The notes beneath the pieces were generated by a model, which saw only the letters and a program-made list of their open reading frames with translations, was not told the DNA's origin and did no database searches. Of a DNA stretch of 34,186 nt, positions 798 to 14,495 are shown one piece after another (the first letter of the stretch is position 1; each line of letters opens with the position of its first letter). Both the position numbers and the translations under genes were made by a program. Location of the stretch: the NCBI GenBank assembly GCA_022627515.1, contig JAKEGK010000199.1, positions 1-34,186 of the forward strand. Direction: 5' to 3'. This DNA comes from Gammaproteobacteria bacterium (GTDB lineage: Bacteria > Pseudomonadota > Gammaproteobacteria > SZUA-152).

Positions 798-1352
798 ATG
801 GACGACAATACCTTATTAGCACGCTATATCAACGGTGATGATGCGGCGTTGACCTGCATCGTAAAACGGTACCAGAAGGACATTTACTGTTTTGTGTACC
901 GGCAGGTCGGTAACGAGGCGGATGCTGCCGATATTACCCAAAAGGTTTTTATAAATTTATTTTTAAAAGCCAGGCAGTTTGAAGGTAAATCCAGTTTCAA
1001 AAGCTGGCTTTATCAGATTGCCATTAACCAGTGTAAAAACCAGTATCGATCCAATGACCGGCGCCGGGAGCACGGGGTTGATGAGAGTGCAGAAGAATTT
1101 ATTTATGAAGACAATAAATTTGATGATGTTTTTGTCATGGAAAAGCGCAGGATATTACAGGACGCGATTAACAACCTGCCTTCGAAACAGCGCTTGACCA
1201 TGCAGTTGCGTGTCTACCAGGAATGCAGTTTCGCGGAAATCGCCGAAATCATGGCAAGCTCCATTGGCACCGTTAAAGCGAGTTATCACCAGGCTGTTAT
1301 CTCGTTAACCAAATCCTTAAAAGAGGAGGCTTATGAACCCGCTCAGATGTGA
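798..1352 (+). CDS. ECF-type RNA polymerase sigma factor
   Basis: This is a 184-residue sigma-70 family protein of extracytoplasmic-function size. Region 2 spans about residues 10-85, with the typical Y-x-x-D-I stretch, the D-A-A-D-I-T-Q-K-V-F helix and the S-F-K-S-W-L-Y-Q-I-A-x-N segment. Region 4 spans about residues 118-170, with L-P-S-K-Q-R and a helix-turn-helix containing S-F-A-E-I-A-E-I and G-T-V-K-A-S. It would direct RNA polymerase to a small regulon in response to an envelope signal. Its 3' end overlaps the next gene by 20 nt, and that gene encodes a zinc-finger anti-sigma factor, so the two form a standard sigma/anti-sigma pair. The ATG at 798 has no obvious Shine-Dalgarno. Such sigma factors commonly regulate their own operon, which here would include the two exported proteases downstream; that is inference. 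Confidence 0.93.
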   Translation: MDDNTLLARYINGDDAALTCIVKRYQKDIYCFVYRQVGNEADAADITQKVFINLFLKARQFEGKSSFKSWLYQIAINQCKNQYRSNDRRREHGVDESAEEFIYEDNKFDDVFVMEKRRILQDAINNLPSKQRLTMQLRVYQECSFAEIAEIMASSIGTVKASYHQAVISLTKSLKEEAYEPAQM

Positions 1353-2526
1353 CGAGGTAAGAAATTCCCTGCTGGAATATCTTGAGTTTGAGTTGCCGTT
1401 AACCGACCGTGAACACTTTTATGAACATCTGACATCCTGCGCCAAATGCCGCGTGACGCATGATGAACTGCTGCAGGTTCTGACAGACGTGAAAAGCATT
1501 GGCGTGGTTTATCCTGCGCAAGCCTATTGGGATGGGCTTGCTGGTAACGTGCTGGAAGAGGTCAAACATCTGCAACTGACAGCCGCACAGGTTTCCGCTG
1601 ATGCAATTCCAGATAGCGAGGCGATGGTAAATTACGCAAGCCACTCTGCCAATCATGATGGCAAGGTCATCGTGTTTTCCCGGATTAAGGACCGTAAGCG
1701 CAAAGCGGCGGCGGTACACTCCGGAACGCCGGCCATTACCAATATCCAGCAAGTTACTCCAGGCAATGAAAAGAAAGCAGCCGCGAGACTGTGGTCCAGG
1801 ATTGCGCTGCCTGCCGCTGCGGCCGTGCTCATGGGTATCGCCGTTGTGCTTTCATTGCTGGAAGAAAATGCAGTGATCATTCAAGACAATATTGGTTTCC
1901 AGGCGCAGATACAATCAGAAAAGTCCCTCGCGGAATTGGCGGAAAAAATCGCGCCGCTGTCACTACCTGGCAATCAATTCGGATTTGCGCAACAAAAGGC
2001 ACTGTTCAATGAGTTTTCCATCGGCTCGATGTTTTCCGAAGCAAAAGCCTATGCGCATGCGGGCCAATCGTTGGAACTGAAAACGCATTTGGCTTTGTTG
2101 AAAACCGCGTTGTTGAATGAAGCGGATTCGCAGCGCAATATCATTGATTCTGTCAGCCGGTTACAACTGCAATTGGAGACGCAGCTTGATTTTGCCGGGT
2201 TGAACCGGGAACTGACCCGGTTGTTGAATGAATATGCCGCCGCTATCAAGGAACAGGACAGCCAGCGCTATAGTCTGGTCAAGGCCGGCGCCTGGCTGTT
2301 TGACTTTGCATTGTCGGTGCTCGCGCAGGATGATGTCAGTATTGTCAAACAATCGAAACAGCTGGCGCAATTAGCAACGGCTTTGCGCGCAACCGGCGCG
2401 CCGCCGGGTGTAATAAAATCACTAAATAAAATTCAGGATATTGTTAAGGAGCCAGCATCTTTCACGCAAAGTAAGTATCAGCAGATTTTGAATGAAGTTG
2501 AGAATATCCGCAGCCTGTTGGGTTAA
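1333..2526 (+). CDS. Zinc-finger anti-sigma factor, membrane-anchored
   Basis: A 397-residue protein starting inside the sigma-factor gene behind a strong AGGAGG site. Residues about 1-50 form a ZAS-type anti-sigma domain with the H-x3-C-x2-C signature (E-H-L-T-S-C-A-K-C-R). A single hydrophobic segment, rich in Ala/Val/Leu, lies at about residues 159-177, so the N-terminal domain is cytoplasmic and about 220 residues face the periplasm. The periplasmic part is mostly predicted helix, rich in L, Q and E, with no domain I can name. The expected role is to hold the ECF sigma factor at the membrane until an envelope signal, often proteolysis, releases it. At nearly 400 residues it is longer than typical anti-sigma factors (about 100-250). 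The M48 gene follows after 54 bases. The metalloprotease next door could be involved in releasing the sigma factor, but nothing in the sequence proves it. Confidence 0.88.
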   Translation: MNPLRCDEVRNSLLEYLEFELPLTDREHFYEHLTSCAKCRVTHDELLQVLTDVKSIGVVYPAQAYWDGLAGNVLEEVKHLQLTAAQVSADAIPDSEAMVNYASHSANHDGKVIVFSRIKDRKRKAAAVHSGTPAITNIQQVTPGNEKKAAARLWSRIALPAAAAVLMGIAVVLSLLEENAVIIQDNIGFQAQIQSEKSLAELAEKIAPLSLPGNQFGFAQQKALFNEFSIGSMFSEAKAYAHAGQSLELKTHLALLKTALLNEADSQRNIIDSVSRLQLQLETQLDFAGLNRELTRLLNEYAAAIKEQDSQRYSLVKAGAWLFDFALSVLAQDDVSIVKQSKQLAQLATALRATGAPPGVIKSLNKIQDIVKEPASFTQSKYQQILNEVENIRSLLG

Positions 2527-2580
2527 ACAAAAGCGTTCCAGCGATAAACTTTTACAACACAATTGTGCAGGGATAAACGT

Positions 2581-4437
2581 GTGACTAATAAAAGAAGCGG
2601 CACGTGTCATTTCAGAGTAATGACTATTGCGGTGGGATACATGGCAATCCTGTACTCCGGGACGGTTGCCGCCTTACCCAATCCCCAGGAGCGGATTGAC
2701 TATTGGCAACAGAATTACAACGCCTTGACTGACGCCGATGATCCGCGCGTGGGGAATGCGCAGCGTATTTTCGGACGCATACTGCAAGCCGCCGGTACCC
2801 GCTATGGTGTCATACCCCGCCTGCACATTATCAGAGAAAATCCTTTTAATGTCGTGTTGCCAATTTCAATACCCGACGGCTGGATCATTCTCTCCAGACA
2901 GGTTCTGGATATGTGTTATGAGAACCGGCAGCAGGGGGATGACCGCCTGGCATTTGTGCTTGCCCATGAAATCGCTCATCTGCTTGATGATGATTTCTGG
3001 CATATGAATTTTTTCAGTGCGCTGAGCCTGTTGCAGGAGAACCGTAACGCCGAACAACAAAAGGTGGTTAACGAAATTCAGGATATATTCACTCATACCG
3101 CGAAGATCGAAGCCAAGGAGCTGCGCGCTGATGAAAAGGGAATACTGTTTTCCGCCATGGCTGGCTATAATCCGTTTGCGATTGTTAACGAGCAAGCGGG
3201 GGAGCAGGGAAGCTTTTTTCATGAATGGCACCGGTTGTTGAACGTGGCTCAATATGCTCAGCCGGGGCCAGTCACTACCCATCCAACGTCATCGCAACGT
3301 TCCACCGCTGTGCTGGCCAGGCTCAAACAGGTCAGCGAGCAGTCTGACCTGTTCAGGCTGGGTTTGATCCTGTATCAAACCGGAAAATTTGAATTGGCCG
3401 AGAAAGCTTTTAGTGAATTCCTGCGTTATTTCCCCAGCCGCGAGGTATATCACAACCTCGCCGCAGCGCATCATCAGATCGCATTGAACCATCATCAATC
3501 GGATCCGGAGCTTGCAAAACAACGCCTGCTGCCGTTTTATTTGCCTGTTATGGCCGATCCTTACACGCGCGCGGCATTCAGTGTTTCACGCGGTAAACCA
3601 GGCAGCCAGTCAACGTTTGGAGAACATATGGAACTGGCGATCAAAAACTATAAGTTAGCGATTGAGCAGGATGCCAACTACTTTTTAGCCTATCAGAATC
3701 TGGCCAGCGCGTATCTGGTAAATAATGAACCTTACAAAGCGATCGCGGTGTTGCAGGATATCGCCGCGCGCTTGCCGGATAATGCGAACCTCAATAACAT
3801 TTTGGGTGTTGGTTTCTATCTGACGGATAACGTGGATAAAGCCGCAGCGCTCCTGAAAAAGGCGATTGCCATTGACGATCTTTATGCACCGGCTTATTAC
3901 AATATGGGGAAAGTGGCTTATCTGCAGGGCGACAGGAACCAGGCAAAAACCTTCTGGAGAAAGTTTATTGCTATCGCGCCGGAACACCGCTGGTCGCAGC
4001 ATTTGGCAGCGAATTTCAATTTTCCCGACAGCGCCGCGCCGAAACAGAAAGTAAAAAGTACGCTATCCAAACAACCGGAAGCGCTGGCAGGTGTAAAGGT
4101 CGGCCTTTATCTTGATGAACTGCCGGCATCCCTGGGAGAACCCCGTGTGAAAAAATTCATGCTCAGTGAGTCCGAATATCTGTTGCTGGAGTATCCCAGC
4201 GGCATCAGCATTGTGGCGGAAGGCGATGAGATAAAGATTATAAACGCCAGTGAAAAATATCCTGCAGCGCAAGCTCAGGGTGTGCGTATCGGCAGCTCCC
4301 GTAATCATGTGATTTCCAGCTACGGCTTGCCGGAGCTGCAATTGGATGCGACGGGTGGCAAGAATTTGTTATATCCGCGCGAAGGCGTCTCTTTCCAGCT
4401 TGCGGACGATAAGGTGGTTTCCTGGTCGATTTACTAA
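2581..4437 (+). CDS. Exported M48-family metalloprotease with TPR repeats
   Basis: I place the start at GTG 2581, with AGGG a few bases upstream; the open frame itself reaches a TTG at 2563. The 618-residue product begins with a signal peptide, likely cleaved after V-A-A before L-P-N-P. The M48 zinc site is complete: H129-E-I-A-H133 plus E180 in E-L-R-A-D. TPR-like helices follow (about residues 255-470). The C-terminal 120 residues hold small beta-rich modules with G-V-R-I-G-S-S and Y-G-L-P motifs, reminiscent of BamE-like or stalk-type folds. The plan (signal peptide, M48, TPR) resembles the periplasmic chaperone/protease BepA, but the C-terminal module is extra. The next gene begins 18 bases later, so an operon with the CHAT protease is likely. 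Function in outer-membrane or secreted-protein quality control is inferred. Confidence 0.88.
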   Translation: MTNKRSGTCHFRVMTIAVGYMAILYSGTVAALPNPQERIDYWQQNYNALTDADDPRVGNAQRIFGRILQAAGTRYGVIPRLHIIRENPFNVVLPISIPDGWIILSRQVLDMCYENRQQGDDRLAFVLAHEIAHLLDDDFWHMNFFSALSLLQENRNAEQQKVVNEIQDIFTHTAKIEAKELRADEKGILFSAMAGYNPFAIVNEQAGEQGSFFHEWHRLLNVAQYAQPGPVTTHPTSSQRSTAVLARLKQVSEQSDLFRLGLILYQTGKFELAEKAFSEFLRYFPSREVYHNLAAAHHQIALNHHQSDPELAKQRLLPFYLPVMADPYTRAAFSVSRGKPGSQSTFGEHMELAIKNYKLAIEQDANYFLAYQNLASAYLVNNEPYKAIAVLQDIAARLPDNANLNNILGVGFYLTDNVDKAAALLKKAIAIDDLYAPAYYNMGKVAYLQGDRNQAKTFWRKFIAIAPEHRWSQHLAANFNFPDSAAPKQKVKSTLSKQPEALAGVKVGLYLDELPASLGEPRVKKFMLSESEYLLLEYPSGISIVAEGDEIKIINASEKYPAAQAQGVRIGSSRNHVISSYGLPELQLDATGGKNLLYPREGVSFQLADDKVVSWSIY

Positions 4438-4455
4438 AAACAAGGCGCTTTATTT

Positions 4456-6789
4456 ATGCTATCCAAATACAACAAAGTTTTAGTAATTTGCGCGCTATAT
4501 GCGTTAACTAACACGCCGACCATTTTATCCGCAGCGATAACAAAATCAGATGCAGCAGCAACGCAAAGCGCGGCGTCTTTGCAGGACGAGGGCGATTATT
4601 ATTTTGACCGGGGTTTTTATGCGCAAGCCATCCAAAAGTGGCGCGATCAATACAAGCAACTGCGTGAAGCCCAGGACCTTTCCGGCCAGATATCCATGCT
4701 ATACAAAATCGCCACAGCACAACGCATGCTCGGCCAACATGACCGCGCCATCCAGGGCCTGGAAGTCGCCAGCAAATTGGTGACATTGACCGATGACGCA
4801 AACTTCAGCCTGATGATCCGGGCTAATCTCGGTGGCGCATACCTTTACACCGGGCAGTATAATCTGGCCAAACCTCTGTTGGTGGACGCGCTTTACACGG
4901 CGGAAAAGACCGGTAACCAGCGCTTGAGCGCCTTAATCCATAATGATCTGGGAAATTTATATACGTTTACCGGGCAACCGGAAAAAGGATTTGATGCATT
5001 TTATAAAAGCGCCAATCTGGCCAAATCCATTAATGACAATTCTCTGGTGCTGCAGGCTTTAACCAATGCCATGATATTAGCGTCGGATCAAAACCAGCCG
5101 GAGCAAGCCTTGTCCGATCTTGCGATGTCACTCAACTTCATCGCGCAAATGGCGCCATCCTATCAAAAAGCGTTTACCGTTGAGAAAATTGCTTCCGCTG
5201 CTTATGGAATGCTGGAAAAATATGAGCCTTCGGATGCCTCATCCATCGCGTCCATCGTAAAGGTGGTTAGTGAACTGGGTGAACAGGCGCATTACGCGGA
5301 AATATCGGGCAATGGCTGGCTGGCGGCAAAATTGTTAATGACGCAAGCGAATTACTACGAGTTCGCGAAGCAGTACGAAGATGCCTTAACACTGGCAAAA
5401 AAAGCCATTTTTCATTCGCAATTGATCAGCGACAATAACCTGACCTACCGCCTGGAGTGGCAGGTGGCCCGGATCAACAACGTTTTGAAGAATGAGACGG
5501 AAGCCGCCGCGTTTTACCGCAGGGCCATTGAGACTCTGCAGCCTGTCCGGCATCTGTTGTATGACGATCCATTGCAAACTGGTTCTTATGAAAAAGAACA
5601 AGGCAATGTATATTTGCAGTTTGCTGATTTGCTGTTGCGCAAGGCGCATAACAGCGACGCTCCTGACTCGGTAAAAGAATTTTTGTTGGAAGCCCGAAAC
5701 GTTCTGGAACGGCAAAAAGCGGGGGAATTGCAGGACTATTTCAAGAATCAATGCGCAGTCGAAACCCGGGCGAAAACCATCAGTATCGAGGATGCCATCG
5801 ATGAGTCAACGGCCGTAATCTATCCCGTGTTGTTGCCCGACCGCACGGAACTGCTGGTGAGTTACAAATCCGGCATCAAGCAATATGTTGTGGAAAAGCC
5901 GCAAGACTATGTTACGGAGCAAATCCGCAATCTGCGAATCAAACTGGAAAAACACAGCACCCGGGATTACTTGGTTTATGCCAAGGATTTGTACCAGGTG
6001 CTGATTGCGCCGCTTGAAAAAGATTTATCGGCACAGCAAGTAAAGACGCTGGTATTTGTGCCGGGGCAATCCCTGCGCACCATTCCCATATCGGTATTGC
6101 ACGACGGCTCGGCGTTTCTCATCGACAAATACGCCGTTGCAACGACTCCCGGGATAACCTTGACTGACCCAAGACCGTTAACGCGCAAAAACATGAAAGT
6201 GTTGCTGAGCGGCGTGTCGGAGCCGGTGCAAGGCTATCCGCCACTGGATTATGTGCCGGTGGAACTGGAACAAATCCAGGATCTGTACGGGGCCAAAATG
6301 CTACTCAACCAGAGCTTTGATAAAAACAGCGTCACGAATGAACTTCAACAAACGAACTACAGTGTGGCGCATTTTGCCTCGCACGCCGAGTTTTCCGGCG
6401 ATGTGCGCAAGTCGTTTATTCTGACGTTTGATGACCGTTTGTCCGTGAATCAATTGGGTCAAACCATTTCCATCGGTCAATCCAGAAACAGGCCCATTGA
6501 ACTGTTGACCTTAAGCGCCTGCAACACAGCGGCGGGGGATGACCGCGCGGCATTGGGATTGGCAGGCATTGCGATCCAATCGGGCGCCAGAAGCGCGCTG
6601 GCATCGTTGTGGGCAATCAATGACAAGGCGTCATCCATGCTGGTGACTGAGTTCTACCGGCAACTGCAGGATGAGCAGGTCACCAAGGCCGTAGCGTTGC
6701 AGCGCGCCCAGCAAAAGCTGTTGCAGGATGTGCGCTACCGGCATCCCGGATACTGGTCCCCGTTTCTCCTGATTGGCAACTGGCTGTAG
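4456..6789 (+). CDS. Exported TPR-CHAT domain protein (caspase-like protease)
   Basis: A 777-residue protein with an N-terminal signal-peptide-like hydrophobic stretch (residues about 7-27, ending near L-S-A-A). Residues about 45-420 are helical TPR-type repeats of the tetratricopeptide family. The C-terminal third is a CHAT domain of the caspase/separase clan. The catalytic pair is intact: H643 in H-F-A-S-H-A, and C689 in L-T-L-S-A-C-N-T-A-A. The usual downstream block G-L-A-G-I-A-I-Q-S-G-A and A-S-L-W is present, as is the final W-x-P-F-x-L-x-G. The stop is TAG followed directly by TAA. It is the last gene of the cluster that begins with the sigma factor. CHAT proteins with TPRs usually cleave a specific partner; since this one looks exported, the two-partner-secreted adhesin encoded nearby is the obvious candidate substrate (inference). 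No Cas or gasdermin gene is present. Confidence 0.92.
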   Translation: MLSKYNKVLVICALYALTNTPTILSAAITKSDAAATQSAASLQDEGDYYFDRGFYAQAIQKWRDQYKQLREAQDLSGQISMLYKIATAQRMLGQHDRAIQGLEVASKLVTLTDDANFSLMIRANLGGAYLYTGQYNLAKPLLVDALYTAEKTGNQRLSALIHNDLGNLYTFTGQPEKGFDAFYKSANLAKSINDNSLVLQALTNAMILASDQNQPEQALSDLAMSLNFIAQMAPSYQKAFTVEKIASAAYGMLEKYEPSDASSIASIVKVVSELGEQAHYAEISGNGWLAAKLLMTQANYYEFAKQYEDALTLAKKAIFHSQLISDNNLTYRLEWQVARINNVLKNETEAAAFYRRAIETLQPVRHLLYDDPLQTGSYEKEQGNVYLQFADLLLRKAHNSDAPDSVKEFLLEARNVLERQKAGELQDYFKNQCAVETRAKTISIEDAIDESTAVIYPVLLPDRTELLVSYKSGIKQYVVEKPQDYVTEQIRNLRIKLEKHSTRDYLVYAKDLYQVLIAPLEKDLSAQQVKTLVFVPGQSLRTIPISVLHDGSAFLIDKYAVATTPGITLTDPRPLTRKNMKVLLSGVSEPVQGYPPLDYVPVELEQIQDLYGAKMLLNQSFDKNSVTNELQQTNYSVAHFASHAEFSGDVRKSFILTFDDRLSVNQLGQTISIGQSRNRPIELLTLSACNTAAGDDRAALGLAGIAIQSGARSALASLWAINDKASSMLVTEFYRQLQDEQVTKAVALQRAQQKLLQDVRYRHPGYWSPFLLIGNWL

Positions 6790-6971
6790 TAAATTCAAAT
6801 GCAGTTTTGACTATTATTACAGCGCAAGCCTGAATAACCTTAAGCCATAAAATTGATCAGTTCCGAAATCTCAAATCAGTCCACGATTTTCCACAGCACA
6901 CTAAACTGTAAATCCGGCTGCGGTGTCACCCTGAATAGATGCGATTAAATACCTAATCAAGGAGGCTGCGT

Positions 6972-7730
6972 ATGTATGCCGAAGCACTGACTTCTATATC
7001 CGCGACGCAACTAACCGGCTCAATCAATTCAATTAGCACTGAAGAACTCGTTGAGCAGACGCTAAGCCAGGACCCCATCCAGCGTTACTATGCCGCCAAA
7101 ACAGTGGCAAGCCTGGGGCCGGTGGATTCCGCATTCGTTCCCGCACTGCACCATCTACTGCAAGATGAAGAATTTAATGTGCGTCTGGCGGCCTGTTATG
7201 CACTGAGCGCCATGGGGCGCGAGGCGATGATTGCGGTAACGGGTTTATGTCATTTGCTGAAAGACAAAACCATTGGCGTTCGTCAAAGCGCCGCGTACGC
7301 ATTGCATGCGTTGTCCCCGCTGCCTCAGTCAACACATCGATCACTCACCCTGGCGCTTGCGGACTTTAATCCCAAGGTAAGAGAACATGCGGCAGCGGCA
7401 CTGGCGTCAAGCCAGCCAAAAGGTGTTTATATTGCGCTTGCTTTGCGTGATGCTTTGTTTGACCCTGTGGAAGCGGTGAGCTAGTATGCCGCCGCGGCTT
7501 TGAGTGAAATGGGGGCGGAAGCTAAACTCGCTATACCGGCATTGGTCACTATTTATTTGGAAGACGTGGACGTTGTCAGGGTAATTGCGCGCGACGCTCT
7601 AAGCAAAATCGTGCCGAATCTTGATATAACACTGGTTCGCAGGATTTATTCAACGAAGCATCGTGATCCGAAAATTAACAACAGCGCCTCTGAAAGGAAT
7701 AACACAGTGGCATTCGTTTTGAACTATTAA
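6972..7730 (+). pseudogene. HEAT-repeat protein gene interrupted by an in-frame amber stop
   Basis: An ATG at 6972 behind a near-perfect AAGGAGG site opens a frame of HEAT/PBS-lyase-type repeats, with units of about 30 residues carrying V-R-x-x-A-A-x-A-L. After 170 codons a TAG at 7482-7484 stops it. The same frame continues without any shift to 7730 and the next residues, Y-A-A-A-A-L-S-E-M-G, complete the interrupted repeat. One base change (for example CAG to TAG) therefore explains the break, and the intact protein would have about 252 residues. Such proteins are usually scaffolds for protein contacts. TAG is used as a normal terminator elsewhere in this window (the CHAT gene), so recoding is unlikely. 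It could be a recent pseudogene, a real 170-residue short form, or a sequencing error. The gene follows the CHAT protease by 182 bases. Confidence 0.8.
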
Positions 7731-7824
7731 TCGGCAGGTCTCTATAACGCTGTGGGGGAATAAACGCAGCGAATCTCTATATATTTAAGGAAGCGCCCAA
7801 TAACTGGCTTTTAAGTCATGTCGG

Positions 7825-7849
7825 CGCTTACGCCCTTTGGGTGAAAGCG
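7825..7849. other. Hairpin-forming sequence
   Basis: CGCTT and AAGCG arms, continued by C/G, a wobble pair and CCC/GGG around a TTT loop, form a compact stem of about 10 pairs with one mismatch. No T-run follows on either strand, so a simple intrinsic terminator is not well supported. It could be a structured 3' end for the HEAT gene or part of the neighbouring repeat element. Confidence 0.4.
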
Positions 7850-7901
7850 TCGAGATGTCTGCAGTTAAAACACATCAATTTGTATATAGGCTTCTTAACT
7901 G

Positions 7902-8154
7902 GAACCTATCTCAAACTTGATAAGTTAGCGATTTCGGGGAACGCCTTTCAAAACCGTCGGCGGCATGGAAGCCGCCGTCGAGCATTCTTTACGAAACAAG
8001 AACGGATGGCCGCTATCGGCATCCTGCCTCCCGCAGCACTTATGCGTCCCTGCACTTCGTATTTACAGCGTGTTTTGAAATGCGCCCCCCGGGACCGATA
8101 TCTTGGTTACCGTGACTTTCTTTCTCTGCTGAATTGTAATATTGAGATAGGTTC
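7902..8154. repeat. MITE-like inverted-repeat element, 253 bp
   Basis: The outer ends are perfect 13-bp inverted repeats: GAACCTATCTCAA at 7902-7914 and TTGAGATAGGTTC at 8142-8154. A second, inner pair of arms lies at 7935-7954 and 8072-8091 (17 of 20 positions match). Within the centre CGGCGGC at 7958-7964 faces GCCGCCG at 7971-7977. There is no transposase. Terminal inverted repeats around a short non-coding core are the mark of a miniature transposable element or the remains of an insertion sequence. No clear target-site duplication is seen. The extent is visible in the sequence; its classification is inference. Confidence 0.55.
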
Positions 8155-8316
8155 TAGTAACTTTGATCCTTGTGTTGCGATTCAATGCGTTCTTCCCAAT
8201 CCGGCTGCCAGGTGAAACAGCCTCCCTTAAGGCAGAGCAGGCAGCTAGCCTACTCTGGTGGAGGAGAGGCAATTCCACTAAAGCCCTATTGCACGCGCTT
8301 GCCTTGAGTGTGCGCT

Positions 8317-8544
8317 TTACTGACGGCATGCTTTGTTAGCCGGGTCATACGCGCAACATGTGGCTCTGAATTGCGCATCCGTGCTTAACAATTGATTATA
8401 CCCCACCGGATTTTGCTGTTGTAACCAGTCACACAATTTTTCATTTGTACTTCCCGGCTGGCCGGTGATATAGACAAGCGTGGATGCAAAAAGACCTAAC
8501 ATGCCGAGAATTTGAAAAACGTTTTTCCAATCAGCCAAGCTCAT
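8317..8544 (-). CDS. Small cysteine-rich membrane protein, unrecognised
   Basis: A 75-residue protein starting at ATG 8544 behind a strong GGAGG site (7 bases upstream), which argues that it is translated. Residues about 9-26 form one hydrophobic segment. The rest is a soluble tail with four cysteines (C38, C63, C64, C73) and the end A-Y-D-P-A-N-K-A-C-R-Q. Four cysteines in a short exported tail suggest disulfides in the periplasm, or metal or lipid contact. It lies 70 bases downstream of the TPS exoprotein gene on the same strand, so it is probably the third gene of that operon. I do not recognise a family. An accessory role in secretion or anchoring of the exoprotein is a guess from position alone. 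Confidence 0.7.
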   Translation of the reverse strand: MSLADWKNVFQILGMLGLFASTLVYITGQPGSTNEKLCDWLQQQNPVGYNQLLSTDAQFRATCCAYDPANKACRQ

Positions 8545-8614
8545 ATTATTTCCTCCGTTTGTGTTGTAGACAATATGTTCTGTGTAGATGTTATAATCGA
8601 TAGTAGAAAACAGT

Positions 8615-11260
8615 TTACTGCATGCATTTGTTGTTTGTTTGATCGATCAGCATAGTAATATACATATTATTTTCGTCGTCAATTGGTTGCAATATTGCTG
8701 TATCTGCAATTGTTAAATTGTAATCATAATTGCTGGGTAGTGAGTAGCTGTTTGTTACAATTGGTTGTGACTTAACGTTGTTTGACAAGATGCTTTTATG
8801 TTTAAAGTCGTCAAATTGGCAATTTTTGGAAAATTGGCTGGCCGGATCAATCTTGGAGTCTGGCAATTTTTCCAAAGAATTATTTAAATCAAGTTCGGAG
8901 TCTATATTAATAATTCCATCTACCGAAAGTTCTGAAGAGGCATCAATTATATTATTATCCAGAATCAGCATGTTTGTTGCATATACATCAATGTTACCAC
9001 CAGCGCCTGCGTAAGCTGTTGCCGTAATAGAGTTGCCATTTAACAATAAAAAGCCAGATTTTATATCTATATTTCCGCCATTACCCTCTGCTGATTGTAC
9101 TGACGTTTTAATATTGCTATTTTGCAAGAGCATAGATTCTGTACCAACTAGCTGAATATTTCCACCGTTTGCTGCAAATGATGTCGCGCTCACTGTGCTG
9201 TCAGAAATTCTGCCTTCATTGAATAATATTTCAATATTCCCTCCTTCTTTAAGTTTAGAATTTTCCGAAGACTCAAACCCATCAGCGTTGGCGCGAATTG
9301 CAGCGCCATCTTCCAGCGCAAAATTATTAGCCTCAATGTAGATCGATCCGGCGTTGTAAGTACTTTGAGGCTCATCATAGTATGTTTCTGCATATAGTGA
9401 ACTGCTCATTAATGACTGTGCTTCATGTAAAGCTGTTGTCTCACTATTTCCGGAATTTAATGAATGTTCATAGGCCAGTTGATTTACTCCCGAAATTGTT
9501 ATCTGGTTGGCGCGCACATGGATATTCCCGGAAGTAAAACTTGAAACAGAGGAGTCGCTGTAGATTTTTCCGCCATCTAGCACATAAATGTTTTGAGAAT
9601 TCAGTGAAATGTTAGATTCACCACTGCCAGTTCTAACAATACGCGAGAAATTATATCCGCCAAAAAGTGCATCCGGATTTGGAGAAACGCCGGAGATGAC
9701 AAGCTCCTCGCTTGTTATATTGATAGCTCCAGCATAGCCGTTATCTGAAGAAAATGTCTGTATATAAGATCCGCCTTCGATGCGCAAATATTGGCTTTGA
9801 ATATTGATATCACCTGATTTGTATCCTCCTGAAGTCCAGGTGCTGATAGCAGCGTTTTGATCCAGTGACATGTTGTTAGCGTTGATAGTAATGTTTCCAG
9901 CGTCATTTCCGTTGATTATACTTAGGCCCGCATTTATACCAGTGAAATCTGTAATTGCAATATCAAATGGGTCTTCCAGTCCGGTGATTTGCAAGTTGTT
10001 GGTGGAGATAGTTATGTCGCCTGACTTTCCCTCGCCAAATAGCCAGTCTGCCCCGCTCTTTATTGAAGACGCATTCTGAATGTCTATAGTATCTGTGCTA
10101 TCTATAGTGATATTGCCACTATCGCCCATGGAAAAAGTGCTGGTGCTAACTTGACTGTAATTGTCCAGCATGATGTGTTTGGCATCGACATTAATGTTTC
10201 CTGCATTTCCAAAGCTAAGAAATTCCGCTAGTGATTGAATGGACGATCCATTACTAATGTTTAAATTGTCAGTTTTTAATTGAATCCCTGTTGGCGTACC
10301 GTCCGCAAACTCTTTTAAATCGGCGGAGATTTTTCCGCCGTTATCCACAGTGATTGATTCGCGTGTGTCTATGTCTATATTGGATTCCATTTGCATGGCG
10401 TAAACTTCTGTATCTGCGGATACGTAGGAAGCACCAACCGTCAGTTGTCCACCACGTATAACTACGCGCCCGCCAAATGTGCCGGTAACGCTGACTGTGG
10501 AAGCATTGTTAATGCTAATGCTGCCCAGTTCAGAAAATGTGCCTAAATCTGTTTGTTGCGGATCCAAGTTTACTTCGCCATCAGACTTGACACTGGACAA
10601 ACTGATTTGTCCATCCGGTACACTGACGGTGCTTCCAGTTGTTATCTCAATATCGCCTGCGCTAATCGTGATGCCGGCGCCATCAATTGCATTTAATTGA
10701 CTACCATCGATAGTTATGTCTGACACTGAATCATCAAGAAATCCAAACGCCGACGGTGCGGCTACTGATAGTGTACTATCCCGGTTGATGTCGGCGTAAA
10801 ACCGTTCCTGATTTCCAAAGCTGATGTAATCAGCCGTGGTGGCGTGAAATGAGCCACTGATATTGATTTGGGCATTGGGACCGAACATCATGCCATTGGG
10901 GTTCATCAGGAACAGGTTGGCGCCCTGGATGGAGCTGCTGATGGTGCCGTCAATGCTGGAAGGATTACTGCCGGTTACTCGGCTAAAAATATTTTGCACA
11001 TTGTTTGGGCCTGAAAAGTTGGCTGTTTGACCGGTGTTGACGTTGAATTCACTAAAACTGTGAAATAAATTATTGCCCGCCAGCCGGCCCCGGTCAGCGG
11101 TGATTTCCATGGTCGATCCATTCAATGTGTCAGCTGTTCCTCCAAAACTCGTATCAAAAGTGACGTCGGCGTTGACGCCGGGTGAAACACAATAGAGACT
11201 CGCGCTGCCGATGATGACTGGTAGTATTTGTTTGTAGGGGATTTTGTGAACGTTGTCCAT
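8615..11260 (-). CDS. TPS-type exoprotein with filamentous-haemagglutinin N-terminal domain
   Basis: I choose ATG 11260, with AAGGA 9 bases upstream, giving 881 residues; the frame extends to 11332 but that part overlaps the transporter gene. A signal peptide ends near V-N-A (residue 31). The TPS secretion domain (about 32-150) carries the N-P-N-G motif at 120-123, and N-I-F-S-R-V-T-G. The body is a repetitive beta-helix with many G-G-N-I, I-N-I-x-S and S-G-D-I-x-I units, as in secreted adhesins. One cysteine occurs 68 residues from the end (S-K-N-C-Q-F) and another is third from the end (K-C-M-Q). It is exported by the Sec system and then by the FhaC/ShlB transporter encoded 13 bases upstream. 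At 881 residues it is short for an adhesin of this class. The gene looks more AT-rich than its neighbours, hinting at transfer. Confidence 0.93.
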   Translation of the reverse strand: MDNVHKIPYKQILPVIIGSASLYCVSPGVNADVTFDTSFGGTADTLNGSTMEITADRGRLAGNNLFHSFSEFNVNTGQTANFSGPNNVQNIFSRVTGSNPSSIDGTISSSIQGANLFLMNPNGMMFGPNAQINISGSFHATTADYISFGNQERFYADINRDSTLSVAAPSAFGFLDDSVSDITIDGSQLNAIDGAGITISAGDIEITTGSTVSVPDGQISLSSVKSDGEVNLDPQQTDLGTFSELGSISINNASTVSVTGTFGGRVVIRGGQLTVGASYVSADTEVYAMQMESNIDIDTRESITVDNGGKISADLKEFADGTPTGIQLKTDNLNISNGSSIQSLAEFLSFGNAGNINVDAKHIMLDNYSQVSTSTFSMGDSGNITIDSTDTIDIQNASSIKSGADWLFGEGKSGDITISTNNLQITGLEDPFDIAITDFTGINAGLSIINGNDAGNITINANNMSLDQNAAISTWTSGGYKSGDINIQSQYLRIEGGSYIQTFSSDNGYAGAINITSEELVISGVSPNPDALFGGYNFSRIVRTGSGESNISLNSQNIYVLDGGKIYSDSSVSSFTSGNIHVRANQITISGVNQLAYEHSLNSGNSETTALHEAQSLMSSSLYAETYYDEPQSTYNAGSIYIEANNFALEDGAAIRANADGFESSENSKLKEGGNIEILFNEGRISDSTVSATSFAANGGNIQLVGTESMLLQNSNIKTSVQSAEGNGGNIDIKSGFLLLNGNSITATAYAGAGGNIDVYATNMLILDNNIIDASSELSVDGIINIDSELDLNNSLEKLPDSKIDPASQFSKNCQFDDFKHKSILSNNVKSQPIVTNSYSLPSNYDYNLTIADTAILQPIDDENNMYITMLIDQTNNKCMQ

Positions 11261-11273
11261 AATCAATCCTTCG

Positions 11274-13010
11274 TTAAGGAAAATACGCAACCAGTTTGAG
11301 ATGAATGCCATCATCCTGCAGTGAATCATCATCGGGGTTACTGATATCTTTCAGCGGTTCGGCCCAGTAAAATTCCGCCAGCGCCGTGCGGTTCCATTGC
11401 CAGCGCAAACCAGCGCCGACGCTGTAAATGCTTTCCGGTTCCACCGGACCGCTATGCATCCAAGCCCGGCCGTAATCCGCAAATCCGGCGACCTGCACTA
11501 AATGCTGCGCGTCTTCGGATTGGAAAATGGCTTTACGCAGTTCCATGGATGCGATAAAGCCATTGTCCCGGACCAGTTGATTTTCGCGGTAACCGCGCAC
11601 GCTATTGGCGCCACCGGCGGCAATTTGTTCCATGGACATCAAGTCATCGAAAGCCACCTGCAGATCCGCTCTGAATACGGTTTGCAGCCCCAGGCTGGCG
11701 TATTGTTTTGCCACCTGGCCTTGCAGCAGCCAGGCAAAAAAATCGCTGTCCGGTTCAAGGCCGTCGTGCTGGGTGGAATCCAATGCGTCCAGTCCCACGC
11801 TCATGATATGGCGGAACGAATACACGGTTTGCGGAGAAAATTTCAGCCAATTCTGGATCAAACGTAATGCTGTGATTTTGCTGACGCCATCGACAGCGCC
11901 GGAGCCTGCGTATGAAACGGCTGTGCCATCGATGTACGAAGTGCTTTTTCTTTTATCCAGTTGCAGCGTGACATCAAATGTTTCAGAACTCGCTTTGTAT
12001 ACCGGGTAAGTCAATCCAATCGTGGCGGTGTCGGACTTATTCTCCAGATCCAGGCCAATGGCTTTGATTTCGTCAGTCACAATTATAGAGTCGCTTTTCT
12101 CGTAGGCGGCGTAGAGAATCTTGTCATCCGCGGTCAGCGGCCATTGATAATTGACATAGCCTTTGTTGAGTCCTTCGGTGTAGTTGACAGTGGCGTCGAT
12201 CTTGTCGCCGAAACCGGTGATATTAAAATGTTGAAACCTTAAAGTGCCCTGTTCCTCGCCGATCGACGGTGGCTGGTGGTTGTCGGCCTGCAATAAAATG
12301 GTATAAGGTCTTTCTTCAGTAATTTCTATATTGAGGATGCTCTCGCCGCGTTTCTCGCCCGGCCCAAGATCGGCGTTAATGCGCTTGATGCGCGGGTCCT
12401 GTTGCAACATGAACAGCCGTTCCTGCAATACATACAGGTTCAACGGTTTGTGCGGATCCAGGCGGATACGATCCGAAATATATTGATTCCTCAGGCGGCC
12501 TTTATTGGCGACGCGCACATCCGATAATTCGCCCTCAACGATTTGTATGTCAAGCGCGCCGTCCTGAATATCCTGGTCCGGAATGATGGCGCCTGAATTG
12601 AGATAGCCATTATCAATGTAGTGTTTGGTAATCAGGTTTTTAATCTGCTGAATATCCAGCGTATCAATTTCATTGCCGATATAAGACGCAATCAGCGCCT
12701 GTAATTGTTCGCCGCTGAATACGGTGTTACCGGAAAAATTCAACGCCTCCAGCTTGAACTTTAATACCTGGGATATTTGCTTATCGGAAGGTTCCGGCGG
12801 CTTGACCGGCGGCAGGCTGAGTTGGGGTTGCGTTTTGGGTTTGAAAGGCTGTTGTTCCAGCACGTCCGGCCGTTCGTCGGCGGGACGGCTGAGCGGAAAA
12901 GCAGATTCCTGCGCGAATATATTGCCGGAACAGAGCATAATCATGAATCCCGTGTAGTAGTCGGATTTGCGCAACATTTTCTTGTGAATTATTTTTTGTG
13001 AATTCCACAT
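11274..13010 (-). CDS. FhaC/ShlB-family two-partner secretion outer-membrane transporter
   Basis: This is the TpsB partner that threads the exoprotein across the outer membrane. From ATG 13010 the product has 578 residues, with a basic N-terminus, a hydrophobic stretch and a likely cleavage after I-F-A (residue 33). A proline-rich linker follows, then POTRA domains (about 84-240) starting F-K-L-E-A-L-N-F-S-G-N, then the 16-strand barrel. V-R-G-Y at 471-474 is the conserved loop motif of the Omp85/TpsB superfamily. The chain ends in an aromatic strand (V-A-Y-F-P). The open frame reaches a GTG at 13043, but that start would lie within a tandem repeat; another possible start is the ATG at 12977. 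It is transcribed ahead of the exoprotein as one operon. Specificity for the adjacent exoprotein is expected for the family. Confidence 0.93.
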   Translation of the reverse strand: MWNSQKIIHKKMLRKSDYYTGFMIMLCSGNIFAQESAFPLSRPADERPDVLEQQPFKPKTQPQLSLPPVKPPEPSDKQISQVLKFKLEALNFSGNTVFSGEQLQALIASYIGNEIDTLDIQQIKNLITKHYIDNGYLNSGAIIPDQDIQDGALDIQIVEGELSDVRVANKGRLRNQYISDRIRLDPHKPLNLYVLQERLFMLQQDPRIKRINADLGPGEKRGESILNIEITEERPYTILLQADNHQPPSIGEEQGTLRFQHFNITGFGDKIDATVNYTEGLNKGYVNYQWPLTADDKILYAAYEKSDSIIVTDEIKAIGLDLENKSDTATIGLTYPVYKASSETFDVTLQLDKRKSTSYIDGTAVSYAGSGAVDGVSKITALRLIQNWLKFSPQTVYSFRHIMSVGLDALDSTQHDGLEPDSDFFAWLLQGQVAKQYASLGLQTVFRADLQVAFDDLMSMEQIAAGGANSVRGYRENQLVRDNGFIASMELRKAIFQSEDAQHLVQVAGFADYGRAWMHSGPVEPESIYSVGAGLRWQWNRTALAEFYWAEPLKDISNPDDDSLQDDGIHLKLVAYFP

Positions 13011-13039
13011 AAAGAGTCCGGCGCCGCAATCCATTTCCA

Positions 13040-13073
13040 CCACCTGGTGCTACTATCCACCTGGTGCTACTAT
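13040..13073. repeat. Perfect 17-bp tandem repeat (two copies) upstream of the TPS transporter gene
   Basis: Two identical, directly adjacent 17-bp units (CCACCTGGTGCTACTAT on the plus strand) lie at 13040-13056 and 13057-13073, ending 30 bases before the chosen transporter start. Each contains a near-palindromic CACCTGGTG. Position in the leader or promoter of a secretion operon, next to a BTAD regulator gene, suggests either a regulator binding site or a length-variable switch. Both are inference; the repeat itself is certain. Confidence 0.85.
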
Positions 13074-13346
13074 AAAGGTGGCCGCAAGCGTTGCTATCAA
13101 TGCTGCATGGATAATGCGTTGTAATACGGAGCATGCCGTGGCGCCGTCCCAGCCATGAAAAACTATGATGAAACCAGTAATACTGCTGAAGTCAACACAC
13201 CGGACGGAAGTATAAAACCCTCCCATGCACGCCAACAATGGCGGTATTACCAAACGTTAATAGTTCACACTATTTGTTACTAATATTTGGTGTGGAAATT
13301 AGCGAACGGCATCTACGCTAGGCTTTTTAAGATGAAAGCCAGCCCG
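13074..13346. other. Intergenic region between the BTAD regulator and the TPS operon
   Basis: It should contain the promoter of the TPS operon (minus strand) and the 3' end of the regulator transcript. No strong promoter was found: TTGATA and TTTATA boxes 18 bases apart occur just upstream of the tandem repeat but match poorly. GGCTTT/AAAGCC arms near 13320-13340 could make a weak hairpin after the regulator stop. No credible gene is seen. Confidence 0.4.
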
Positions 13347-14276
13347 CTACGCGGCAGCGCGAAGTACCTGCTGATAAATCGCGCTGGTTGCCGCCGATGG
13401 TTCAAATCCGGTCAATGCCTTGAAAAGGCGCTGGCATTGCTGATAAACCGCGATCGCTTCAATCTTTCTTCCCCGTTGTGCGTAACATTTCATCAAGCGT
13501 TGATAGAAGGCTTCCGACAACGGGTCGATTTCGATGCCTTTACGGTAATAATCAATCGCAAGATGGCACTGCCGGTGTTGTTCAAACGCATCGCATACAT
13601 GTTCCAGGCTGCGGATGAAGCGGCTCTTCTGTTTTTCCCGGAAAGCGATAAACCACGACTGTTCGTCTTCGTTGCCAAGGAAGTGGCCCTGGTAAAGGTT
13701 TAATGCCTGGTTGGCAAGCGTCCTGATTTTTTCAAGATCCACGTTGCTGCAACGCAAGGCGTACTTGATGTCATTGAGGATATCTTCCAACGCCCACACG
13801 TCCACCCAGCAAACCTGCGGATTTAAAGTGAGGTGGCCGTCAGCGAGCAGCATGGATTCCATGGTCAGAAACTTGCGGATGCGGTGCAGGGTGACGGAAA
13901 ATGAAGTATGCGCCACGTCACCGTCGGCATCAGGCCATAAGGCATCACTGATTCGGATTTCTCCCACGGACCGGCCGCCCAGTGCAATAACCAGTTTTAA
14001 CAGTTCGCTGGGTTTGTGCTGGTTTTTTTCATGACTACTAATCAACTGGCCGTGCTTGTGTATAGCGAAATGCCCCAGCGTGGTGATGACGATGGGATAA
14101 CTGTCCGATGCGCCAGCAATGATCTGCCGGTTGTCAGCCGGCGCGGATAAATCCCGGTTTTTCGTTGTTTGTTTTGGTGTGGAAATAGTCTTCGGTGGCG
14201 AAATTTTAATTAAAAAGTCTATGTCCAGCGGCTGTAGTCCGGATGTAGCAGGCTTTTTGTATAGTGAAGTTTCCAT
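13347..14276 (-). CDS. BTAD-domain transcriptional regulator (SARP/OmpR-type winged helix)
   Basis: A 309-residue protein from ATG 14276 with GAGGGG 7 bases upstream. After a low-complexity N-terminus of about 55 residues comes a winged-helix DNA-binding domain (about 58-150) with L-G-H-F-A-I, K-P-S-E-L-L-K-L-V-I-A-L-G-G, and S-x-T-L-H-R-I-R-K-F. The rest (about 160-309) is a bacterial transcriptional activation domain of TPR-like helices, with L-Y-Q-G-H-F-L, D-P-L-S-E-A-F-Y-Q-R-L-M, and the closing Y-Q-Q-V-L motif. Regulators of this class bind direct repeats near promoters and activate nearby genes. The adjacent, same-strand TPS operon with its 17-bp tandem repeat is the natural target (inference). 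The gene's own leader holds a 15-bp palindrome that may serve autoregulation. Confidence 0.87.
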   Translation of the reverse strand: METSLYKKPATSGLQPLDIDFLIKISPPKTISTPKQTTKNRDLSAPADNRQIIAGASDSYPIVITTLGHFAIHKHGQLISSHEKNQHKPSELLKLVIALGGRSVGEIRISDALWPDADGDVAHTSFSVTLHRIRKFLTMESMLLADGHLTLNPQVCWVDVWALEDILNDIKYALRCSNVDLEKIRTLANQALNLYQGHFLGNEDEQSWFIAFREKQKSRFIRSLEHVCDAFEQHRQCHLAIDYYRKGIEIDPLSEAFYQRLMKCYAQRGRKIEAIAVYQQCQRLFKALTGFEPSAATSAIYQQVLRAAA

Positions 14277-14307: not shown

Positions 14308-14495
14308 CCGCTTGTGACACGGCGAGCGAGGAGAGGGTTTAGTGCGCTGGTTACCGGAGGATTATGTTTTTATGTTAAAAGTTGGAGTAAGAGAAAAATG
14401 TCAAGGGTGCGCCATGCAGCGTCTTCAAAAAGCAGCGCAATCAATAACCATCCCGGCTGGCGCTGGATGATTGCCCGGATGTAAGAAAGATAAAC

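Follow-up and report, generated by a model that had tools for sequence, protein, structure and literature searches.

The stretch of DNA analysed here, below called the window, comprises 34,186 nucleotides of contig JAKEGK010000199.1 (contig C199 of genome G000; assembly GCA_022627515.1, Gammaproteobacteria, SZUA-152) and contains an extracytoplasmic function (ECF) sigma factor, two peptidases and a two-partner secretion (TPS) pair, arranged in two blocks of genes. Block A, on the forward strand, encodes the sigma factor, its anti-sigma factor, an M48 metallopeptidase with TPR repeats, a TPR-CHAT cysteine peptidase and a HEAT-repeat protein, and it also includes a gene on the reverse strand, here called gene X. 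Block B, on the reverse strand and downstream of gltB-gltD, encodes a BTAD-type activator, the transporter TpsB, the exoprotein TpsA and a protein of 75 amino acids with four cysteines. A sequence-only reading of the window had listed its gene contents, and all of them are found at the positions it gave. It had also assigned signal peptides; hydrophobic N-terminal segments are indeed present, but the basis for calling a protein exported is not a trained signal-peptide predictor, and in what follows the word denotes such a hydrophobic segment.

The sigma factor (798-1352, +), recognised with Pfam and NCBIfam profiles, has both region 2 (Sigma70_r2, 6e-17) and region 4 (r4_2, 3e-11) in a profile search, and its orthologues in three related genomes, G008, G009 and G010, are 55-66% identical to it. 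The gene overlaps that of the anti-sigma factor (1333-2526, +), which has an HxxxCxxC zinc-finger N-terminus, one transmembrane helix (residues 157-175) and a periplasmic domain of about 220 amino acids. The match to zf-HC2 (2.5e-4) is slightly below the curated cut-off, while an orthologue in locus L143, introduced below, is above it with 31 bits; residues C6, H32, C36 and C39 are invariant in six orthologues. The periplasmic domain is all-helical in a structure model with a predicted local distance difference test score (pLDDT) of 75-91 over residues 221-397, it has no match in a fold search against the PDB (best E 0.72), and it is the least conserved part of a protein with an overall identity of 16-35%. 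Taken together, sigma regions 2 and 4, the HxxxCxxC motif, the gene overlap and a promoter motif found in six of six loci identify the pair, from sequence, as an ECF sigma factor and a putative zinc-finger anti-sigma factor with predicted zinc and sigma binding.

The exported M48 peptidase (2563-4437, +; Peptidase_M48, 2.5e-7), which probably starts at an ATG inside the called open reading frame (ORF), has an HEIAH motif, with H135-E136-H139 and E186/E191 invariant in six orthologues. It also contains TPR repeats, and its C-terminal domain is of the alpha/beta type. The structure model is of low quality across the protease domain, and a fold search matched only TPR proteins. As an exported HExxH M48 peptidase with TPR repeats it resembles BepA and LoiP of the outer-membrane assembly pathway, from which it differs by the extra C-terminal domain; it is not BepA by the curated NCBIfam equivalog M48_BAM_BepA, for which it reaches 17.8 bits where 570 are required. 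In a scan of the phylum its subfamily occurred in the present genome only (1 of 398).

The exported TPR-CHAT protein (4456-6789, +; CHAT, PF12770, 7e-56) is the sole CHAT protein of its genome. Its N-terminus is signal-peptide-like, and its His643/Cys689 dyad is intact and invariant among orthologues, from which peptidase activity is predicted. A peptide-pattern scan of the genome contigs with a single CHAT sequence gave no match, and PADLOC found no CHAT/sigma defence system.

In block B, TpsB, an outer-membrane transporter of the FhaC/ShlB type (11274-13043, -; ShlB, PF03865, 2e-28, and POTRA_2, PF08479, 3e-19), and TpsA (8615-11332, -; TPS domain, PF05860, 1.5e-44) are encoded by adjacent genes, as expected for a type Vb secretion system; the real start of TpsA is probably Met25. 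In the stand-alone, SARP-like BTAD activator (13347-14276, -; BTAD, 5.5e-20), Pfam does not call the helix-turn-helix part, the winged-helix DNA-binding domain that precedes BTAD in SARP regulators, but the NCBIfam AfsR model aligns with the protein over residues 60-307.

What joins the two blocks is a promoter motif. Among 24 genomes of the order, all from one family, block A occurs in G000, G008, G009 and G010, always with sigma, anti-sigma, M48 and CHAT genes beside gene X, and the four sigma genes share the sequence ACTAAACC-N14-GGTGTCA directly upstream (753-781, +, in the window). The sequence is invariant in these four genomes and has two mismatches in L143 and L200, loci of the gammaproteobacterial metagenome-assembled genomes (MAGs) 8_1_Jan_SF_Bin63 and Bin82, where it also stands before both genes, sigma and BTAD. 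In the window the copy before the BTAD gene (14315-14343, -) has one mismatch, as have those in G008 (L057), G009 (L213) and G010 (L060), where the BTAD and sigma genes lie on different contigs. The motif thus precedes the sigma gene in six of six loci and the BTAD gene in six of six, even when the blocks are unlinked, and its position relative to BTAD is the same in all of them; the loci are homologous and stand for few independent lineages. Allowing up to three mismatches, the window holds four copies against 0.55 expected, a number reached in 0 of 100 shuffles, and all four face gene starts, namely those of gene X (599-627, -; three mismatches, weak), sigma, the HEAT-repeat gene (6900-6928, +; one mismatch) and BTAD.

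With a scoring matrix trained on the sigma promoters only, five BTAD upstream regions score between 21.7 and 26.4; the sixth, in L200, has one mismatch, overlaps the start of a called ORF and is counted outside these scores. For 688 control upstream regions, drawn from loci in genomes chosen for their CHAT relatives unaccompanied by this sigma factor, the maximum is 15.2, and for a further 116 genes in these same loci it is 11.5, so that none of the 804 control regions scores as high as the BTAD regions. Upstream of gene X the scores are 13.0, 16.2, 17.1 and 20.8, with the motif present at two to three mismatches in all four genomes, and in G009 the TpsB gene has a motif copy of its own. A reversed control pattern has no exact match anywhere in the four genomes. 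Outside the targets named here, the number of genome-wide matches with one mismatch is near the control level, and therefore no wider regulon is claimed. One such match, at 20945-20971 of contig C67 in G000 (L216:4945), lies before the gene of a 110-amino-acid, exported-looking protein downstream of hydrogenase genes, which is a possible extra member of the regulon.

Shared regulation of the sigma operon and the BTAD gene is thus well supported. Since the motif is shared and its position conserved, the sigma factor is predicted to transcribe its own operon, autoregulated through the promoter at 753-781, and to have the BTAD gene as a direct target. The motif could also be the site of another regulator that co-regulates both operons, for instance a second sigma factor or the BTAD protein itself, as BTAD regulators often are autoregulatory and sequence conservation is all that is known of the motif. 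Its layout is, however, that of an ECF promoter, with two short blocks, the first containing AAC and the second GTC, that are always 14 nucleotides apart and lie 10-180 nucleotides ahead of the start, and it stands before the sigma gene itself in six of six loci. We consider such another regulator very unlikely.

The sequence-only reading had the two blocks lying opposite each other, and their physical neighbourhood in the window is not supported as a basis for the link. In G008 (C60), G009 (C169) and G010 (C1) block B adjoins gltBD on contigs other than those with block A, and in G008 and G010 both blocks are deep inside long, different contigs. Because the blocks are on different contigs in three related genomes, their contiguity is not conserved in the family; it is particular to the present genome, where it falls on a dispersed repeat (7895-8160, no strand) with 61 matching places in the genome. 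The repeat family is intergenic and built from several sub-blocks that are conserved (query positions of about 183-264, 227-289 and 339-441), and the junction between the blocks could stem from either a rearrangement or an assembly join. These observations, together with the fact that hemE stays near block A and gltBD near block B, are what one would expect if two unrelated loci had been brought together at the repeat and block A were a self-contained envelope-stress operon. Such an origin accounts for the layout of the window, but not for a functional link, and for function it is largely refuted by the motif before BTAD in six of six loci, by co-occurrence in the family and by contiguity and fusions elsewhere; as an account of the whole we find it very improbable. 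The co-occurrence is strict, in that the stand-alone BTAD protein (E < 1e-140) is found in exactly those 4 of the 24 genomes that have block A, the other matches being larger, different proteins. Were the genomes independent, the chance of all four being shared would be 1 in 10,626; being related, they are not.

Outside the family, the genes are found together. In L143, where the assignments were checked with Pfam, and in L200, the BTAD gene, the sigma, anti-sigma, M48 and CHAT genes and the TpsB-TpsA pair form one locus, so that CHAT, M48 and TPS genes do recur elsewhere within about 15 kb, the check which the sequence-only reading had proposed. When named genomes were scanned with a CHAT alignment, 71 relatives were retrieved, from Gammaproteobacteria, Nitrospirota and Thermodesulfobacteriota, and 41 of the 71 CHAT loci, L143 and L200 included, have TpsA or TpsB genes. 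Six sigma-linked CHAT proteins form a single clade among those sampled (SH-aLRT 100; one change on the tree, as few in 0 of 500 shuffles), and because of this the association between sigma and CHAT probably arose once. No CHAT locus outside this clade has the set of sigma, anti-sigma and M48 genes; of the 20 class loci with full-length TPR-CHAT relatives outside it, 13 also have TpsA or TpsB. These loci often also hold genes for CHASE2-cyclase and DUF928 proteins, and clusters of TPS, CHAT, CHASE2-cyclase and DUF928 genes recur in Gammaproteobacteria and relatives (L113, L116, L122, L125, L126, L150 and L154).

In two lineages the CHAT domain is part of the exoprotein. On the complete chromosome of Desulfonema magnum (L184:4280-12274), a protein of 2664 amino acids has a TPS domain at residues 67-272, TPR repeats and a CHAT domain at 2394-2662, the TPR-CHAT part coming after the TpsA tail. 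In a Parabeggiatoa MAG (L195:7925-11593), a protein of 1222 amino acids has the TPS domain at 54-255 and CHAT at 951-1220, at its C-terminal end. The promoter motif, the contiguous loci L143 and L200 and the fusions speak against an accidental link between blocks A and B, which the separate contigs and the repeat at the junction would suggest by themselves. The functional link that the sequence-only reading had drawn between the sigma factor, the proteases and the TPS genes is upheld by the promoter before BTAD in six of six loci, by L143 and L200, by the widespread linkage of CHAT to TPS and by the fusions. M48 accompanies sigma and CHAT in six of six loci, and only by way of these two is it tied to TPS.

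Proteolytic maturation or release of TpsA proteins is known from FHA, cut by SphB1, and from CdrA, which LapG releases by cutting its periplasmic C-terminal tail (PMC5422565). They differ from the CHAT protein considered here: SphB1 belongs to the subtilisin autotransporters, and LapG is a protease under cyclic di-GMP control that is encoded apart. According to a review, genes for proteases that mature TPS exoproteins seem to lie outside TPS operons (PMC5422565). Which proteases mature TpsA is an open question in the field, and since CHAT adjoins TpsA or is fused to it elsewhere, it may be the sought processing or releasing enzyme. The most likely place for CHAT to act on TpsA would be the tail. 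Beyond the N-terminal 60 residues, the TpsA of the window contains cysteine at only two positions, -68 and -3 relative to its C-terminus, and such a pair (about 70 and 3 residues from the end) is found in 34 of 51 complete exoproteins linked to CHAT or sigma when tails are scored by cysteine-pair count, a strict regular expression being too narrow. The tails of HMW1 and HxuA are held in the TpsB pore by a disulfide loop (PMC5422565), and by analogy the cysteine pair, here known from sequence alone, may lock the TpsA tail in its transporter. Next to TpsA is the small protein with one transmembrane-like segment and four cysteines (8317-8544, -), which is kept beside TpsA also in G008 (L057); that it may handle the cysteines of TpsA is a pure guess.

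From these elements a single TPS-centred regulon can be put together, in which the sigma factor would control CHAT, M48 and, through BTAD, TpsB-TpsA, and CHAT would process TpsA; we regard this as rather probable. The membrane anti-sigma factor would hold the sigma factor until a signal from the envelope or from secretion frees it. The freed sigma factor would transcribe its own operon (sigma, anti-sigma, M48-TPR and TPR-CHAT), probably gene X, and the BTAD gene, and BTAD would in turn activate TpsB-TpsA. TpsA would be threaded through TpsB, where its tail cysteines may lock it, and the periplasmic TPR-CHAT protein would cut the tail or another part of TpsA, resulting in maturation or release. 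M48-TPR would probably clear stalled TpsA or TpsB, or assist.

Several observations weigh against the regulon. In G008-G010 the two blocks do not adjoin, and every locus except that of Desulfonema comes from a draft assembly or a MAG. The linkage between CHAT and TPS is common rather than universal, with 27 of 67 tree rows lacking TPS in the sampled stretch, many of them on short contigs. A cysteine-pair anchor is not general, since 17 of the 51 TpsA proteins do not have the pair by the count used. Finally, that BTAD acts on TpsB-TpsA is suggested only by the adjacency of the genes, and no convincing BTAD site was found to be shared before TpsB/TpsA: the search gave just a direct repeat with a period of 11 bp in L143 and, in L200, a weak direct repeat, neither of which was used.

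The proteases could instead act on the switch rather than on the cargo. CHAT, M48 or both would then sense the state of the TPS system, for example by a TpsA tail held by the TPR repeats, and cleave the anti-sigma factor in its periplasmic domain, the TPS genes being the output. The likeness drawn here is to DegS, which cuts RseA. In the sigma-linked clade, CHAT and M48 are always directly behind the sigma and anti-sigma genes, and the anti-sigma factor has a long folded periplasmic domain on which they could act. There is also a precedent of principle in Craspase, where Csx29, itself a TPR-CHAT protein, cuts the sigma inhibitor Csx30 in a system that includes CASP-sigma (PMC10028731). With that system the present one shares a TPR-CHAT peptidase beside an ECF sigma factor and an inhibitor. 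Csx29, however, is RNA-guided through Cas7-11, whereas here CHAT is exported and the anti-sigma factor is a membrane zinc-finger protein. Craspase itself, the type III-E CRISPR protease, was rejected as an identity for the locus, because there are no cas genes among the ORFs of the 34-kb window, the CHAT N-terminus is signal-peptide-like, and a sequence search of TPR-CHAT against PDB chains gave TPR proteins, with Csx29 absent among the best 60 of 69 matches. Cutting of the switch is further at odds with the exported TPR-CHAT proteins of other lineages, which accompany TPS genes without sigma or anti-sigma, with the fusion of CHAT to TpsA and not to anti-sigma factors, and with the weak conservation of the very domain that would be cut. 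We hold it to be unlikely, though clearly less so than another regulator or a chance joining of loci.

A wider scheme, which we put forward tentatively and think doubtful in full, combines both activities. Many TPS systems of Gammaproteobacteria and Nitrospirota would have a dedicated third partner, an exported TPR-CHAT protease that cuts a periplasmic, cysteine-locked TpsA tail and so frees the exoprotein; in the sigma clade this protease would also read the state of secretion and cut the anti-sigma factor, closing a feedback circuit between secretion and expression.

Control of a TPS pair by an ECF sigma factor is known from PUMA3 (VreA-VreI-VreR) of Pseudomonas aeruginosa, where the sigma factor and a membrane regulator control a nearby TPS pair (PMC2729926). 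The tie between an ECF sigma/membrane regulator pair and a TPS pair, recurring in other genomes, is common to both systems, but PUMA3 has the receptor-like VreA, a regulator of the cell-surface signalling type, exbBD and genes of a type II secretion system, where the present system has a zinc-finger anti-sigma factor, M48, TPR-CHAT and a BTAD relay. Cell-surface signalling of the PUMA3 type, which calls for a FecR-type regulator and a partner resembling a TonB receptor, was rejected for this locus, with its anti-sigma factor of the zf-HC2 type and no receptor gene seen in the window. While ECF control of a TPS pair and proteolytic maturation of TpsA are already known, the combination of M48, TPR-CHAT and BTAD relay, the association of CHAT with TPS and the fusions did not turn up in the literature searched, and no paper was found that joins the CHAT domain with two-partner secretion, filamentous hemagglutinin or CHASE2, most subscription journals being outside the search. 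A CHAT family with genetic links to TPS across two phyla, twice fused to the exoprotein and, in one clade, predicted to be under the same sigma factor as the TPS activator provides a specific enzyme, a substrate region and a promoter as candidates in the question of TpsA processing.

Two further genes of block A remain to be described. The HEAT-repeat gene (6972-7484, +) ends with an in-frame TAG (7482-7484) where the orthologue at the same place in G008 has Trp, and as the frame is open to 7730, the gene is probably truncated by this codon; the promoter-like motif was not found before the HEAT gene of G008. Gene X (1-582, -), divergent from sigma, encodes a conserved, uncharacterised protein that resembles a cupin by eye and has no Pfam match, and its orthologues adjoin sigma in L012, L013 and L014. 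In each of the four genomes that have block A, hemE adjoins gene X. In the window its C-terminal part is missing at the contig end; this missing end is the start of contig C102 of the same genome, upstream of hemE, from which it follows that contigs C199 and C102 adjoin.

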